64,000 bases of DNA from Bacteroidota bacterium (lineage in GTDB: Bacteria > Bacteroidota > Ignavibacteria > Kryptoniales > JAKASW01), in contig JAKAGT010000004.1 of assembly GCA_021825585.1 (NCBI GenBank), positions 124,001 through 188,000 of the forward strand, read 5' to 3'. Shown here piece after piece: positions 27,801-51,806 of this stretch; within the stretch, counting starts at the first letter, position 1, and each line of letters starts with the position of its first letter. A program made the position numbers and the translations under genes. The notes under the pieces are model-generated. The model was given only the letters and a program-made list of their open reading frames with translations, did not search any database and was not told the origin of the DNA.

Positions 27801-28100
27801 AACCTCGACATCAGGTTGTCGAAGATGTTCACCGTCAGCAAGACGAATTTCGAGCTCGTACTTACGGTGCAGAATGCATTGAACGAAAAACGGCTCTACA
27901 CCGACAACATGACGCCGAACCAACTGACTTCATATGAGAATTCACTTCACCTCCCCTGGAATTCCGGCGCTATGAAGGGGAATGATAAGTGGGGAGACAT
28001 ACCGTCGTCGAAGAAGCCTTACATAGACGTCGGCTGGTGGCAGGCCCCCATATTCTTCGACCCGCGCAGGATACTGCTGGGCATTCGGTTCAACCTGTGA
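24852..28100 (+). CDS. TonB-dependent receptor heading the GH18 run
   Basis: A 1082-aa outer-membrane receptor. A signal peptide (to about residue 29) is followed by a carboxypeptidase-regulatory-like domain (about 30-130; GKIAGRVVDSKSGEGIVGAT), a plug (about 155-260; GVELVDNSQGHGLSIRGG, DGISLQDPRS) and a large barrel ending in LLGIRFNL. AAAGGAGG lies 7 bases before the ATG. It differs from copies A and B in plug sequence and belongs to another subfamily. The GH18 chitinase gene starts 8 bases after its stop, so uptake of chitin or peptidoglycan oligosaccharides is a reasonable but unproven guess. No SusD-like gene is present. Confidence 0.93.
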   Translation: MRNTWYRGHNSFWLTSAILVFLISDAALAANGKIAGRVVDSKSGEGIVGATVIVDSQWIAGKPVRLSVPLGAMSDANGYYTILNIHPGTYNVTARMLGYASMVQKEVTVEAERTITVNFSLEQGAIQMRGVEVVYRANIIRPDIAGTQEIVHTQRVEEAPMTRVDEFIGKLAGVELVDNSQGHGLSIRGGAIRETDVSLDGISLQDPRSENSYLSFNSTTIQELQVMTGGFQAKYGGIQSGLVNAVTKDGSRQRYSLAVTANMTAGGQQKFFGQNPWSSNSVIYQIFAGKYAMRGIRTHADSMAVPSEFWGFKGWANGVKQGSVYRYMTGQYTAPYIQFPAGFTAATQLDSTQRMEIWKLRHPTSAVATKPDYYFEGSLTGPVPGENLPLLGWYLGRTTFLLGYKYENTQFAYPIGPRDNYIDWNTQLKLTTDLTSADKLTVEGLYAYVNTLNTGIGSTYGGSLQEGSSSFGFLTNTQSSIEQQARLIGGGSFQQIYDISRMQFYDQRFVISGAKYTHTISPNAYFTLDAHFQYNDHNLQPYSLDTSKTSAWWYMVGDKVYDTPQPGAIKILKVPSGGTPNGSTNYIPDELSMFNLSGGPQRIDSSFSWFGQLNGNLVWQVDRHNQLEAGFSAELTRLFDYAGTWYQVKLSYTPDLWQYYDVMPITGGAYIQDKLEFQGIIANLGVRLDYWNPRRNAFAVSNPPDPAYTSFYNDVYANLPGGFGSYQTWALYRSMLGNPPGWPSTPNKVQMPISPRLSVSFPVTESSKMYFNYGHFYQRPAFPFVYDLAMYPAAATIPSPDLSMGKTVSYEFGFEQTIMDEYLATVSFYYKNQTNQPLPITYVDYYHQNQVTMYVPAGYDDIDGVEFRLEKTMGRFVTFWANYDYMMSGSGQNGLRYIYQNQLEAANAMRSANITTIIPTPRAHVDLNFHTPMDLGPSGLGVSPLGGWNLDFLFDWQAGGKMLFNPQEPDIKKQEWLSVVDYTNLDIRLSKMFTVSKTNFELVLTVQNALNEKRLYTDNMTPNQLTSYENSLHLPWNSGAMKGNDKWGDIPSSKKPYIDVGWWQAPIFFDPRRILLGIRFNL

Positions 28101-28108
28101 GGGAGCGC

Positions 28109-29536
28109 GTGAGCATAAATCATTCTTCAAGAATAAAGCAATTGCAGAAAGGAAAGGCGTTTCTCAGCCTCATCCTGGCAGTCGCTGCTTTCGTCATGCC
28201 TTCGTATTCAGCACTCGCGGCGGGAAGGACGGTCGTGGGATACTACTACTTCTGGGACAGGCAGAGCTTCCCGTACTCCGAGATTGAGTACTCTAAGTTG
28301 AACTGCATAGCATACGCGTTCGTGATACCAAATTCCGACGGCACCATCACTACCGAGCAAGGCGCATCGTGGAATGACTTTCTTTATCCACAGCTGATTG
28401 CGACAGCACACAACGACTACGTCAAGGTTGTCATATCGGTGGGCGGATATAATTCGGTGGCGACTGCGAACTTCAGTCTTCTGTGCAAGAGCGCGACGAC
28501 ACGGGCTAACTTCGCCAGGACCATGAAGGACTTCTGCCTTCAGAATGGTTTCGACGGAGTGGACATAGACTGGGAGTACCCGGGCTCAGGCGACCGGGCA
28601 AACTTTGTCGCGATGATACAGGCTTTGAGAGACTCGCTTAACTCCACAGGCAAGCAGCTCTCACTAAGCATCACGACACCTGGTTATGTCGGGAGCGGAT
28701 ACGATATAAACAGCCTCTATCCTCTCCTCGACTGGGTCGGCGTGATGACTTACGACTATCATGGCTCGTGGACTAACAACTCCGGCCCCATCTCACCGCT
28801 TTACCCCGGCGACGCCGAGGGCTCAGTCAGCACCTCCATTTCTCAATTCCTTCAGTCCACTTCTGTCCCGCCCTCAAAGCTTTTCATGGGGCTTGCGTTC
28901 TATGGATATGACTTCCAGTCAAAAGGGTTATATCAACCGCGAACAGGCTCGGCGCCGTCCATCCCGTTCAGAGCAGCGATAGATTCGGAAAAGGCAGGCT
29001 GGACGTACCATTGGGACGATGTTTCGAAGACCCCGTACCTTACGGATGCATCGAACACTCACGTGATTCCTTTCGACGATACCGTTTCGATCAGGTATAA
29101 ATGCGATTACTTGAAGAGCAAGGGCCTCGGAGGTGTGATCATCTGGGAGATCAGTCAGGATGACCTCGGAAGCTCGCAGCCGCTGCTCGAGACGACGTGG
29201 GGCATTCTCAATCCGGAAGAGGCTGTAGCATACCCGGGCAACCACGCGGTTCCGACTTACAGTTCGCTGCTGCAGAATTATCCCAACCCGTTCAACCCTT
29301 CGACAACGATCAGCTATCGGCTTTCAGCCGTCAGCAGGGTGACGCTCAGGGTCTATGACGTCCTGGGACAAGAGGTTGCTACGCTCGTTGATGGCCGTCA
29401 AGGCGCGGGAAATCACTCTGTGACCTTCTCCGCCAAAGGCGGATCCACCTATGGAGGAAACGCGAGCGGCGTCTATGTCAGCGTACTTTCGGTGAACGGA
29501 AAATTCTTTACACAGAAAATGCTTTATCTCAAATAA
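28109..29536 (+). CDS. GH18 family chitinase-like glycosidase with T9SS sorting domain
   Basis: About 475 aa from a GTG at 28109, chosen because the track start at 27989 lies inside the receptor gene in another frame. A GAGGGAG element precedes the GTG, and a signal peptide follows (FLSLILAVAAFVMPSYSALA). The GH18 catalytic motif is intact (FDGVDIDWEYPG, with the acid Glu), along with GYYYFWDRQ, ISVGGYNS and MTYDYHGSW. Relatives hydrolyse chitin or N-acetylglucosamine-containing glycans. A T9SS type A sorting domain ends the protein, but it carries an insertion (KGGSTYGGN) after HSVTFSA encoded by two micropalindromes, and the last strands are atypical (SGVYVSVLSV). Secretion through the T9SS is expected unless the insertion breaks it. 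Confidence 0.9.
   Translation: MSINHSSRIKQLQKGKAFLSLILAVAAFVMPSYSALAAGRTVVGYYYFWDRQSFPYSEIEYSKLNCIAYAFVIPNSDGTITTEQGASWNDFLYPQLIATAHNDYVKVVISVGGYNSVATANFSLLCKSATTRANFARTMKDFCLQNGFDGVDIDWEYPGSGDRANFVAMIQALRDSLNSTGKQLSLSITTPGYVGSGYDINSLYPLLDWVGVMTYDYHGSWTNNSGPISPLYPGDAEGSVSTSISQFLQSTSVPPSKLFMGLAFYGYDFQSKGLYQPRTGSAPSIPFRAAIDSEKAGWTYHWDDVSKTPYLTDASNTHVIPFDDTVSIRYKCDYLKSKGLGGVIIWEISQDDLGSSQPLLETTWGILNPEEAVAYPGNHAVPTYSSLLQNYPNPFNPSTTISYRLSAVSRVTLRVYDVLGQEVATLVDGRQGAGNHSVTFSAKGGSTYGGNASGVYVSVLSVNGKFFTQKMLYLK
29430..29459. repeat. Two tandem micropalindromes in the GH18 sorting domain
   Basis: TCCGCCAAAGGCGGA (perfect 6-nt arms, 3-nt loop) is followed directly by TCCACCTATGGAGGA (one mismatch). Together they encode the extra KGGSTYGG residues not found at this point in the other sorting domains. 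They keep the frame because each is 15 nt long. Confidence 0.65.
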
Positions 29537-47385: not shown

Positions 47386-47590
47386 TTATTTTCCTTCCAC
47401 CACCTTTATCTCCTCCTCCGTCAACCCACATACAACTCATACACCGCTTGGTCTATTTGCCGCTCGAGCGACTCGCACTCCCGCTCAAGGCGGCTCGTCT
47501 CCGCTTCCGTTCTGGCCTTGCTCAACTCCTCCTTCGCCGCAAGCATGCGGTCGACAAGCGCGACAATGCGGTCGTGGGGTTTATGCTTTT
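47386..47590 (-). pseudogene. Restriction-modification C-terminal fragment, frameshifted (copy 1)
   Basis: The minus strand encodes a tail typical of class I SAM-dependent DNA methyltransferase/type IIG restriction enzymes (PHDRIVALVDRMLAAKEELS ... ERQIDQAVYELY, then GLTEEEIKVVEGK). The last block is in a different frame: two extra bases after ELY shift the reading to an early stop in the track ORF. Only the last 60 or so residues of a protein that should exceed 500 exist. The N-terminal side ends at the palindromic array, so the track ORF 47421-47702 is repeat sequence fused to this fragment. Confidence 0.7.
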
Positions 47591-47597
47591 CGTTTCT

Positions 47598-48629
47598 GTC
47601 ATGCCGAACTCGTTTCGGCATCTGTCCTGCCCAGCGTTTAGACCCCGAAATGAATTCGGGGCGACACGTCCGGGGGTAATATCTGAGAATTCCATGTTTC
47701 ATGATTCTCGTCCTACATAGTCATGTCGAATCCCATTAACGTCATGCCGAACTCGTTTCGGCATCTGTCCTGCCCAGCGTTTAGACCCCGAAATGAATTC
47801 GGGGTGACGGAGCCGGGGGTAATATCTGAGAATACCATGTTTCATGATTCTCGTCCTACATAGTCATGTCGAATCCCATTAACGTCATGCCGAACTCATT
47901 TCGGCATCTGGTCCCTGGCAAATGAGGATGCCATCCGTTAAATCCTTCATCTCAGGATTCAGCGCTTTTATAAGGTTAATCTTCCAGTCCCGATGCCAAT
48001 TCTTCAATTGTTTCTCTCGCATAATGGCATCTTTTATTGATGGGAGTTCTTCGTAGTAAACCAAATCTTTAAGCCTGTATCGTTGAGTAAAGCCCGGTAT
48101 TTTACCTTCACGGTGTTCCATGACTCTTCGCACGAGATCATTAGTGACACCGATGTAAAATGTGGTACGTTTAATGTTGCTCATGATATAAACATAACCG
48201 CGTTTCATGATTTACGTCCTAATCGTCTCGATTCGCCCTAACGTCATGCCGAACTCGTTTCGGCATCTGTCCTGCCCAGCGTTTAGACCCCGAAATGAAT
48301 TCGGGGTGACGGGGCCGGAGGGGTAATATCTGAGAATACCATGTTTCATGATTCTCGTCCTACATAGTCATGTCGAATCCCATTAACGTCATGCCGAACT
48401 CGTTTCGGCATCTGTCCTGCCCAGCGTTTAGACCCCGAAATGAATTCGGGGTGACGGAGCCGGGGGTAATATCTGAGAATACCATGTTTCATGATTCTCG
48501 TCCTACATAGTCATGTCGAATCCCATTAACGTCATGCCGAACTCGTTTCGGCATCTGTCCTGCCCAGCATTTAGACCCCGAAATGAATTCGGGGTGACGG
48601 GTCCGGGGGTAATATCTGAGAATACCATT
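47598..48629. repeat. 143-bp tandem array of paired palindromes
   Basis: Six units start at 47598, 47741, 47884, 48243, 48388 and 48531. Five carry a 68-bp core from GTCATGCCGAACTCG to TTCGGGG(T/C)GAC with two hairpins: ATGCCGAA/TTCGGCAT and CCCCGAA/TTCGGGG. A 75-bp spacer completes a period of 143-145 bp. Unit 3 keeps only the first hairpin and is stretched to 359 bp by a GIY-YIG gene. Spacer bases TCATGATTCTCGTCCTA match the leader and start codon of that gene. The core resembles dispersed palindromic elements common in Bacteroidota and other genomes. Confidence 0.9.
47885..48208 (-). CDS. Single-domain GIY-YIG endonuclease-like protein
   Basis: A 107-aa protein with the GIY-YIG fold signature in its usual reduced form: GYVYIMSN ... 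TFYIGVTNDLVRRVMEHREG, then YYEELPSIKDAIMREKQLKNW with the family Glu. Small stand-alone GIY-YIG proteins (UvrC-N-like, UPF0213-like) are presumed nucleases of mostly unknown role. Its last residues (DAEMSSA) and stop codon are encoded by the first palindrome of array unit 3, so the gene and repeat are physically one element. Its leader and first codons (ATG AAA) are shared with every array spacer. Confidence 0.85.
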   Translation of the reverse strand: MKRGYVYIMSNIKRTTFYIGVTNDLVRRVMEHREGKIPGFTQRYRLKDLVYYEELPSIKDAIMREKQLKNWHRDWKINLIKALNPEMKDLTDGILICQGPDAEMSSA

Positions 48630-48650
48630 CTTCAATCCGACAAATCATGG

Positions 48651-48979
48651 TCAGACGTTTTCCACCACTTTTTGAGCCAAAGGCTCATCAGCCTGAGGCT
48701 GAATCTCCTCCTCCCCGCCTACACTTCGTTTCGGCGGGCAGGCGTCAACCTCCCGCCTTTGGCGGGATAAACTTCAAGCCCATACACTGCCTGGTCTATT
48801 TGCCGGTCGAGCGTCTCGCACTCCCGCTCAAGGCGGCTCGTCTCCGCTTCAGTCTTGGCTTTGCTCAACTCTTCCTTGGCCCAAAGCATGCGTTCGACAA
48901 GATTAACGATGGGGTCGTGGGGTTCGTTTCCTTTGAAGTCTTCTACCAGCTTCCTGACTGTCTTGAATGCTTGTTCCAC
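48651..48979 (-). pseudogene. Restriction-modification C-terminal fragment broken by palindromes (copy 2)
   Basis: A second copy of the same methyltransferase/restriction tail (PHDPIVNLVERMLWAKEELS ... DRQIDQAVYGLEVY). Aligned to copy 1 at the DNA level, it continues AGGTTGACG, GAGGAGGAGAT and AAAGTGGTGGAA, but these blocks are separated by inserted palindromes (CCCGCC-3-GGCGGG; CCCGCC-13-GGCGGG; CAGCCT-1-AGGCTG plus TGAGCC-3-GGCTCA). The reading frame is destroyed after VYGLEVY. Only the extreme C-terminus of the original gene exists here. Confidence 0.7.
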
Positions 48980-49134
48980 GGAATACCCAGGTTAATGATT
49001 GTCTGAAATTATCGACGGAGAGGCGGAAATGCAAGGATCCGGTGGCCAAAGGCCATCCGTTAAAACGGACGGCTGCCAGGAGCGCGAAACCCCGAGGGGT
49101 TTTCTGTTCTTCCCAAGCCTCCGCCTCTGGCGGA
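48673..49134. repeat. Cluster of micropalindromes (GCC-NNN-GGC type and others)
   Basis: Short, mostly perfect hairpins of 13-17 nt: TGAGCCAAAGGCTCA (48673), CAGCCTGAGGCTG (48689), CCCGCC...GGCGGG (48714-48738), TCCCGCCTTTGGCGGGA (48751), TGGCCAAAGGCCA (49043), TCCGTTAAAACGGA (49056), AAACCCCGAGGGGTTT (49087) and TCCGCCTCTGGCGGA (49120). Several share a GCC-AAA-GGC core with different flanking arms. Confidence 0.8.
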
Positions 49135-49175: not shown

Positions 49176-49410
49176 AGCAACCTTTTTCGATCTCCGAGTC
49201 AGGACAGGCCCATTCCAAGTGAGCTTTTTCTCTCTCTGAGTGAGGACGAGCTCGTTCCAAGTGAGCTTTTTCTCTCTCTGAGTGAGAAAAAGGTAGTCTT
49301 GACTGAGTTCTTTCTCTGTTCGAGTGAGAAAGAGGTCGTTCAAAGGGAGCTCATTCTCACCTGAAGCGAGAAAAAGGTGCCCCGGAGTGAGCTTTTTCTA
49401 ATCGGGAGGA
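49176..49410. repeat. 42-bp tandem repeat
   Basis: Five full units and one partial unit start at 49176, 49218, 49260, 49302, 49344 and 49386, of the type AGTGAGCTTTTTCTCTCTCTG followed by AGTGAG(A/G)A. Each has CTTTTTCTC and GAGAAAAAG arms able to pair within or between units. ORFs on both strands (48903-49343, 48999-49364) are only the repeat read through and have no other support. The remaining 49411-49589 gap shows nothing recognisable. Confidence 0.85.
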
Positions 49411-50449: not shown

Positions 50450-50930
50450 CCTAAATTCTGAGCCCTAAACTCTAAAGAAATTCGAACTCACATTCAAAGC
50501 GCGTGGAAATTGGCAAAACCTCTTACTTTCCTCCCGATTTTGTGATTATCGCCCCCAGGATCTTCATCAACTCAGTGGCTTCTTGTATAAGGGCACTTCG
50601 CTCTTCTTCCTGGGCTGGATTGCATTTTATCAGCCTCAACCAGTAGCGAGTCTCTTTTGCTTCCTTACGGGAAATTTTAGCCCGCATGAAGTAATCTTTT
50701 CTGCTTAGTGATTCGTTCGCCTCAATGTAATTTGCACCGACAGAACCCGATGACCTTACGAGCTGTTTTATGATTTCACTGTCAACGATATCCTTGGGTA
50801 CGTCGTTGACAAAGTCGATGACGCGTTTTGAAAAAGACTCTGTCCTTTCCTCCAAATCATACTTCTTCGCGTTTTGGATTTCAGGCTTTGGGGTTTGTTT
50901 AGAGTTTAGAGTTTCGTATTTAGAATTTAT
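50450..50930. mobile_element. Candidate four-helix-bundle (S23/IVS) cassette with inverted ends
   Basis: The segment encoding the C-terminal four-helix-bundle domain of the FolD fusion is flanked by similar sequences in opposite orientation. These are CCTAAATTCTGAGCCCTAAA-CTCTAAAG on the left (50450) and, on the right, the complement of AAATTCTAAATACGAAACTC-TAAACTC (50894-50930). S23-type four-helix-bundle genes are known as rRNA intervening sequences and as stand-alone genes with scattered distribution. The inverted ends suggest movement, though no target duplication was identified. Confidence 0.4.
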
Positions 50931-51806
50931 TTCCCCGGCCTTTTTCTCCGCAGCCATTAGAGTGTTCCGCATCAGCATTGATATCGTCATCGCTCCGACT
51001 CCGCCGGGGACCGGCGTTATCCATCCCGCAACTTCCTTGGCCGCCTCGAAATCGACGTCGCCGACAAGACCGCCGTCCGTCCGGTTGATCCCCACGTCCA
51101 GCACGGCGGCGCCCGGCTTGATGAATTCCTTCTTGATGAACAGCGGCTTGCCTATTACCGCGACCAGAATATCAGCCTCTCTGCAAACCGCGGCAAGATT
51201 TGCCGTCCGGGAATGAGCGATAGTGACAGTAGCGTTCTTGGAAAGCAGGAGCATAGCCGTCGGTTTCCCGCCGAGGTTCGAACGGCCCACCACGACCGCC
51301 CTTTTCCCGGTAACTTCGATCCCATATTTATCGAGGAGCACCATCATGCCGTACGGAGTACACGGGAGGAGAAGACGCTTCTCCATTATCTCGTCCCACG
51401 CCTTCGCGGCGCTGAAGAGACCGATGTTGAACGGATGAAGTCCGTCCACATCCTTCGACGGGTGAATCGCCTCGATGATTCTGTACTCGCTTATCTGTTT
51501 CGGAAGCGGCATTTGCACAAGTATGCCGTGAATTCTGTCGTCCTGGTTGAACTCGTCTATTTTCGCAAGGACTTTCTCCTCAGAAGTGTCTTCGGGCATC
51601 TTCTCCGTCAACGAGTAGAAGCCGAGCGATTCGCATGCCTTCGCCTTGTTCTTTACGTAAACCTGCGAGGCGGGGTTGTCGCCGACCAGTATGAACGCGA
51701 GACCGGGTGTTATCCCGTGCTCCCGATTCAACTTCTCGGTAAGAACCTTTACTTCTTCCTTTATTTCCTGCGATACGGCTTTGCCGTCTATGATTGTTGC
51801 TGTCAT
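50523..51806 (-). CDS. folD: FolD fused to a four-helix-bundle (S23/IVS) domain
   Basis: A 427-aa protein. Residues 1 to about 293 are FolD, which interconverts methylene-, methenyl- and formyl-tetrahydrofolate: YVKNKAKACE with the catalytic Lys, GILVQMPLP, KDVDGLHPFNIG, VVGRSNLGGKP and PGGVGAMTISMLMRNT. FolD normally ends near here. A low-complexity linker (SKYETLNSKQTPKP) then joins in frame to a four-helix-bundle protein of the 23S rRNA IVS family (YDLEERTESFSKRVIDFV, QLVRSSGSVGANYIEANES, SRKEAKETRYWLRLIKC). The bundle domain has no obvious start of its own. This looks like an insertion at the folD 3' end that became a fusion. Confidence 0.9.
   Translation of the reverse strand: MTATIIDGKAVSQEIKEEVKVLTEKLNREHGITPGLAFILVGDNPASQVYVKNKAKACESLGFYSLTEKMPEDTSEEKVLAKIDEFNQDDRIHGILVQMPLPKQISEYRIIEAIHPSKDVDGLHPFNIGLFSAAKAWDEIMEKRLLLPCTPYGMMVLLDKYGIEVTGKRAVVVGRSNLGGKPTAMLLLSKNATVTIAHSRTANLAAVCREADILVAVIGKPLFIKKEFIKPGAAVLDVGINRTDGGLVGDVDFEAAKEVAGWITPVPGGVGAMTISMLMRNTLMAAEKKAGEINSKYETLNSKQTPKPEIQNAKKYDLEERTESFSKRVIDFVNDVPKDIVDSEIIKQLVRSSGSVGANYIEANESLSRKDYFMRAKISRKEAKETRYWLRLIKCNPAQEEERSALIQEATELMKILGAIITKSGGK

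Follow-up and report, generated by a model that had tools for sequence, protein, structure and literature searches.

The stretch analysed here (the window) comprises 64,000 nt of contig JAKAGT010000004.1 (positions 124,001 to 188,000) of a Bacteroidota bacterium from the Ignavibacteria, and our subject is a group of short palindromes found in one copy of a duplicated gene end. The C-terminal tail of a restriction-modification (RM) gene of the Eco57I / TaqI_C type occurs twice on the minus strand, at 47387-47581 (copy 1) and 48660-48925 (copy 2), and an open reading frame (ORF) of a small GIY-YIG nuclease lies between the two on the same strand (47885-48208; PF01541, E 1.3e-16). We believe that the palindromes of copy 2 probably belong to dispersed hairpin micro-elements, the main one being a 30-bp unit of two inverted hairpins.

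The two tails and the inserts of copy 2

With the inserts excluded, the copies are 87% identical over 144 nt, and their alignment confines the palindromes to three sites of copy 2. The gene is named from an intact homologue in the same genome (L332, a 1047-aa frame), which joins an Eco57I methylase to a TaqI-like specificity domain. Both tail copies are broken genes, and copy 1, free of palindromes, is itself altered by a 2-nt frameshift (VYELYVG*).

At the first site (48751-48767, TCCCGCC-TTT-GGCGGGA) copy 2 reads CCCGCCAAAGGCGGGA between ...TTAT and GGTTGAC; this insert is probably the central part of a longer element, AGTTTATCCCGCC-NNN-GGCGGG(A), and also occurs in an unrelated context in G000:C43 (labels of genomes, contigs and loci are ours). 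The second insert (48714-48742) is a 29-nt palindrome, CCCGCC-13-GGCGGG+CAGG, which reads CCTGCCCGCCGAAACGAAGTGTAGGCGGG on the minus strand between TTGACG and GAGGAGGAG; the insertion is precise (TTGACG^GAGGAG), and the same sequence stands in a different context in L101. The third (48673-48702) is exactly 30 nt long, TCAGCCTCAGGCTGATGAGCCTTTGGCTCA between GAGGAGGAGAT and AAAAGTGG, relative to copy 1 and to other tails. It is a single doublet of two perfect hairpins, TGAGCC-AAA-GGCTCA and TCAGCC-TGA-GGCTGA, each with a 6-bp stem and a 3-nt loop, and it is a member of the family by pattern. In another notation the inserts are TATCCCGCCAAAGGCGGGA, the 29-nt CCTGCCCGCC-GAAACGAAGTGTA-GGCGGG and the 30-nt TCAGCCTCAGGCTGA+TGAGCCTTTGGCTCA.

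The initial annotation had reported two RM C-termini and argued, from this one before/after pair, that the palindromes were insertions absent originally; it proposed that the loci of relatives be aligned. Both copies were located, and the relatives support the same direction of change. A genus-wide tail search found that most RM tails read VYELYGLTEEEIKVVEG or near it, without palindromes, and at least nine further tails are free of the inserts and retain the VYELYGLTEEEIK-type reading. The first insert is restricted to G000:C60, G011:C35, two G003:C41 tails and window copy 2; the 29-nt insert is found in copy 2 and, at the matching site, in one G003 tail (L064b), and the 30-nt doublet in copy 2 and, again at the matching site, in the other G003 tail, the arms being TGA/TCA in copy 2 as against TGC/GCA in G003. 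Since only a few genus tails bear inserts, the palindrome-free form is most simply regarded as ancestral, judging from the tail alignments. The annotation also listed CAGCCT/AGGCTG and TGAGCC/GGCTCA palindromes, which were indeed inserted but are parts of one 30-nt doublet; what it overlooked is this unit, its spread across phyla, its targeting of tRNA copies and the presence of a GIY-YIG gene between the tails.

The 30-nt doublet: design, insertion and spread

The doublet consists of two abutting 15-nt hairpins, TNN-GCC-WNA-GGC-N'N'A and TNN-GCC-TNW-GGC-N'N'A (that is, TNNGCCWNAGGCN'N'A joined to TNNGCCTNWGGCN'N'A). In hairpins with the GCC/GGC core and a WNW loop the outer arms are complementary far above the expected 1/64 (5 of 11 sites with the loop AAA, 4 of 7 with AGA). 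A genome-wide excess, which the initial annotation had made a check of its proposal, does exist and is limited to GCC-WNW-GGC hairpins with complementary outer arms; the exact pattern CCCGCCNNNGGCGGG occurs only 6 times in the genome and was dropped as a family signature. As that pattern is not abundant, it is the GCC-WNW-GGC core with covarying arms, and not CCC arms, that defines the family. GCCWNWGGC taken without the arm condition is not in excess (236 vs 478 for the reversed pattern).

The doublet pattern was found 5 times in the same genome vs 0 for the reversed control, 40 vs 9 times in 61 relatives (a genus/class sample) and 17 vs 0 times in 297 genomes of the phylum, with fully complementary arms in all 17. 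Perfect complementarity of both arm pairs is seen in 118 of 120 doublets; from the search pattern by itself about 1 in 16 would be expected. A search with a symmetric pattern gave the head-to-head loop order WNA-then-TNW in 32 of 33 doublets and the reversed order in none. Loops and arms are uncorrelated between the halves; the halves thus vary independently, so the structure that is kept is two separate hairpins, and one long hairpin was ruled out as the conserved fold. Rfam gave no credible family in the region. In L126, L141 and L445 (G083) doublets are nested within a larger CCCGCC...GGCGGG palindrome, similarly to the nested insertions reported for the SDR elements of Nostoc.

When the joined flanks were searched against the rest of their own locus, empty-site paralogues were obtained for 21 of 183 doublets vs 4 of 366 control positions. 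Such paralogues are ungapped in L109, L053, L074, L131, L192, L121, L064 and the window; many empty sites align gaplessly over the junction, i.e., exactly 30 nt were added, and no bases are duplicated at the ungapped sites. A four-unit array corresponds to a step of 60 nt. The same is observed within conserved proteins: a 10-aa in-frame insert in DUF5131 of G049 is missing from 79 homologues at the matching site, a 20-aa insert in GH31 of G003 (the four-unit 60-nt array) is absent at the matching site in at least five orthologues, and an in-frame insert of ~11 aa spanning a doublet in CcmF of G005 is absent there in most genus orthologues. The flanks of 120 aligned copies have the consensus TTY/RAW, with insertion at TTY^RAW, and are enriched in short direct repeats, i.e., in word-repeat intergenic DNA. 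Insertion into loops of flanking inverted repeats was rejected as a rule, the excess being weak (7 vs 2.5 expected, stems of at least 6 bp).

A scan of GTDB species gave at least 114 doublet loci, nearly all in metagenome-assembled genomes (MAGs). Among the matches listed are Patescibacteria, Ignavibacteria/Bacteroidota, Omnitrophota, Elusimicrobiota, Margulisbacteria, WOR-3/Stahlbacteria and one record labelled Nanoarchaeota. A single genome may hold up to 20 doublets, and the dominant variants are genome-specific (identical 24-mers in 19 of 20 doublets of G083 and 12 of 15 of G069). One doublet sequence had no match in plasmid and phage collections. On the comparisons of sequence presented above, we consider precise insertion of a fixed size, a target preference, arm covariation and spread to be established.

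Transfer RNA copies, GIY-YIG nucleases and Y1 transposases

Ten of 157 doublets (about 6%) interrupt partial copies of transfer RNA (tRNA) genes adjoining an intact tRNA (control, 1 of 1559; Fisher 3e-10). In the T-loop cases the junction lies between C56 and R57 (C56^R57), and the remaining cases fall in the D-arm or D-loop. Reading the flank-joined copies as whole tRNAs by ARAGORN gave 0 of 158, because the targets are partial copies; they were revealed by alignment to the neighbouring intact tRNAs.

Small GIY-YIG genes accompany these copies. In doublet genomes a tRNA is found within 500 bp at 13 of 30 small GIY-YIG loci, vs 1 of 39 Y1 transposase loci and 10 of 190 random positions. The 155 doublet loci hold eight GIY-YIG genes, seven of them at most 405 bp from a doublet; for the gene of the window the distance is 515 bp. 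Bases within 500 bp of a doublet make up 16.7% of those loci (binomial 2e-5). In L439 the gene is flanked on one side by a doublet with a tRNA fragment and on the other by a doublet with the identical fragment; L438, L441 and L428 contain an intact tRNA, a GIY-YIG gene and a hairpin-bearing tRNA copy, and further such copies adjoin GIY-YIG genes in L131, L192, L163, L113 and L146. The layout of the window is the same, the RM tail replacing the tRNA. In phage T6 the GIY-YIG homing endonuclease SegB is tied to tRNA genes and drives their segmental amplification (PMC13096335), and nuclease-driven duplication is on that account a reasonable source of the tRNA and RM-tail copies.

It is possible, to our mind with rather low probability but ahead of the other rivals, that GIY-YIG homing-type nucleases cut anchor genes (tRNA loops, RM tails) and duplicate segments in the manner of SegB, the hairpins occupying and destroying the cut site in the duplicate; their breaks would then be the entry point of the elements. 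The arrangements just listed speak for it. However, a GIY-YIG gene is present in only ~5% of doublet loci, cutting at the insertion sites is a prediction, the enrichment of units around GIY-YIG genes is no more than moderate (3 of 30 loci), and tandem tRNA copies bear doublets with no GIY-YIG gene detected in L074, L108 and L109. Palindromes in general are more frequent near GIY-YIG genes than at random positions, though not more than at Y1 loci. Two loci deserve mention separately: around 1500-1700 of L146 the anticodon arm of a tRNA-Asn copy is replaced by TCCGCC-CAA-GGCGGA and a doublet sits in its T-loop, with an intact tRNA-Asn and the GIY-YIG gene as neighbours of the copy; and in L426 (G049:C11) a GIY-YIG gene is flanked on both sides by one tRNA-Leu 3' end (GGTTCGAGTCCCCCCTTCGGCACA), without a GCC-type doublet.

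A slightly less favoured possibility is that the doublets are REPIN-type elements moved by a Y1 (HUH) enzyme, either a RAYT or an IS200-like TnpA. Inverted hairpin doublets are the make-up of REPINs (PMC3116915), and Y1_Tnp was detected in 12 of 13 genomes of the genus and in 24 of the 30 that carry doublets. In L316 (G005:C16), a RAYT/REP-like locus (REP, repetitive extragenic palindromic), a Y1 gene has around it four AATCCGCCTCTGGCGGATT units, which share the hairpin core, and several other palindromes; the IS200-like TnpA loci L311 and L323 have a hairpin CCACTGCC-TTA/AAA-GGCAGTGG (CCACTGCC-WWW-GGCAGTGG), again with the GCC-WNW-GGC core. Nevertheless, none of 30 Y1 genes in doublet-bearing genomes (a count of loci numbered L100 and above) has a unit within 1.5 kb, the flanks carry no GTAG/CGTC tag, and six doublet genomes have no detectable Y1_Tnp, although these MAGs are incomplete.

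Somewhat more doubtful is a homing-like system operating across many uncultured phyla, in which GIY-YIG nucleases would cut conserved loops of tRNA and anchor genes and so cause segmental duplication, and the 30-nt doublets would insert at the cut site of the duplicate, immunise it and spread via those breaks; the two hairpins would then be the whole nuclease-guided mobile element.

Proposed mobility and related elements

We presume, with good though not full confidence, that the inserts are dispersed hairpin micro-elements and that the main one, of fixed 30-bp length with two abutting inverted 15-nt hairpins (cores GCC-WNA-GGC and GCC-TNW-GGC, variable complementary arms), reaches new sites by being copied whole. 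It probably spreads as a folded single strand, moved by an enzyme that acts in trans. The two-hairpin "clover" would enter where DNA is nicked or broken, perhaps in the loop of a hairpin or a tRNA; the small GIY-YIG nucleases, lying with the tRNA and RM-tail duplications, would be the leading candidates for making the breaks and duplications that host the elements. Hairpin-templated (quasi-palindrome) repair may rewrite one arm from the other, and we infer that the arms stay perfectly paired for this reason.

Several points weigh against this explanation. Neither transposition nor an intermediate was seen, and most copies have no enzyme associated with them. About 95% of doublets have no GIY-YIG gene nearby, and in 6 of the 30 (incomplete) doublet genomes no Y1 transposase was detected. 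Some flanking sequence is common to copies in G069 and in part of G083, so amplification there may partly involve longer units. The insert sites of copy 2 are common to G003 tails; thus the window inserts may in part have been inherited together with the tail and not newly acquired.

Ordinary selected hairpins (terminators, mRNA stabilisers, protein linkers) that arose in place are a very improbable alternative. The hairpins are stable and often lie between genes or at gene ends, as such an origin would have it. However, no U-run follows (the 3' flank of the 120 aligned copies is R-A-W, without the T-run of an intrinsic terminator), the length is fixed at 30 nt, copies lie inside conserved proteins and tRNA copies, and the core recurs in many phyla, with the reversed-pattern control at 0 in 297 genomes. 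We give equally little credit to local replication errors (template switching) producing the palindromes afresh at each site. The arms do look templated, and palindromes are hot spots for templated errors; yet one 30-nt design and core is found at unrelated sites in unrelated phyla, and identical copies occur within genomes. Arm correction by templated errors belongs to our explanation, although origin by them is disfavoured. The least credible proposal, precise deletion of the palindromes from copy 1, can appeal to its frameshift, since that copy has changed too, but the insert-free tails of the genus speak against it, and the present set of tails does not support an insert-bearing form at the root.

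Turning again to the mobile micro-element, its closest likenesses are REPINs and the SDR elements of Nostoc; our best reading is that it works like either of these and is yet distinct in the REPIN features tested. In common with REPIN/BIME elements mobilised by RAYT (PMC3116915), the dispersed unit is an inverted doublet of short hairpins with a "clover" fold. The differences are that REPIN doublets are spaced by 71-110 bp (PMC3116915), whereas no spacer is present here; that the flanks read TTY/RAW in place of a GTAG/CGTC tag beside the hairpin; that the location is not strictly extragenic, with in-frame copies in DUF5131, GH31, CcmF and RM tails; and that a general link to Y1 transposases is not seen. 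As to a cognate RAYT flanked by the same repeats, the observations are mixed, with one positive locus, L316, and 0 of 30 Y1 loci in doublet genomes. The target-site duplication of a miniature inverted-repeat transposable element (MITE) is lacking at the ungapped empty sites.

The Nostoc elements SDR1-8 (Elhai et al., 2008) are reportedly 20-30 nt long, with hairpins kept by compensatory changes, nested and word-repeat copies and inferred mobility, and confined to a cyanobacterial subgroup. Our doublets resemble them by description in size, compensated hairpins with evidence of insertion, nested copies, copies inside tandem word repeats and inferred mobility; they differ in having a single 30-nt double-hairpin design over many uncultured phyla and in-frame and tRNA-loop insertions. 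Rickettsia palindromic elements, which are about 100-150 nt, had been offered by the initial annotation as a loose, longer parallel: both are palindromic and occur in frame within genes, while the unit here is 30 nt and in a different phylum, and the Rickettsia elements are not known to have fixed 15-nt modules. Allomyces double-hairpin elements and the repetitive hairpin elements of sponge mitochondria (PMC2800124) reportedly have GC-rich hairpins standing side by side, look mobile and occur in coding as well as intergenic DNA; by that description they share the adjacent hairpin pair and differ in being organellar, and they are not known to be related in sequence. Free-standing SegB-type nucleases share a GIY-YIG gene adjoining tRNA genes with duplicated tRNA segments; they are phage-borne in PMC13096335, where hairpin inserts do not figure in the abstract or the tRNA-association section.

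If our explanation is true, 30 bp suffices for a mobile element, and the family is a candidate for one of the smallest. Patescibacteria, Ignavibacteria, Omnitrophota and others have this design in common, and the open papers searched by sequence and keyword (few subscription papers were covered) do not describe such a family or give the sequences in a relevant context; its novelty is therefore provisional. The fixed core, covarying arms, exact empty sites and defined target offer a clean case for how REP-like and SDR-like hairpins move, and the GIY-YIG nucleases with tRNA loops offer a testable link for hairpin mobility. The doublets also account for recurrent short in-frame peptides in predicted proteins of these groups, e.g., SAKGG-SASGG or QPxADxPLAQ.

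Other features of the window are as follows. A single 15-nt unit, TCCGCCAAAGGCGGA, lies in frame (SAKGG) at 29429-29443, within the region of a GH18 gene (27989-29536, plus strand) that holds the C-terminal sorting tail, and seems to have arrived by insertion; another, TCCGCCTCTGGCGGA, is found just past copy 2 (49120-49134). The GIY-YIG ORF is surrounded by a repeat spaced by ~143 nt, in four copies, with two larger REP-like palindromes (ATGCCGAACTCGTTTCGGCAT and ACCCCGAAATGAATTCGGGGT; 47598-48634). Also just past copy 2, at 49178-49387, there is a 42-nt tandem repeat of about 4-5 copies with CTTTTTCTCTCTCTGAGTGAG words. In G000:C44, G000:C60, G010:C40 and G003:C41 (L347, L344/L348, L343 and L064/L341) the 3' tails of RM genes recur at intervals of about 1 kb and a different small ORF follows each of them, an arrangement that resembles an array of cassettes with the RM gene end as its anchor. 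Finally, the FolD gene at 50523-51806 (minus strand) continues in frame into a four-helix domain, 23S_rRNA_IVP, at its C-terminus (PF02882+PF00763+PF05635); this is an unusual fusion or else an in-frame insertion.
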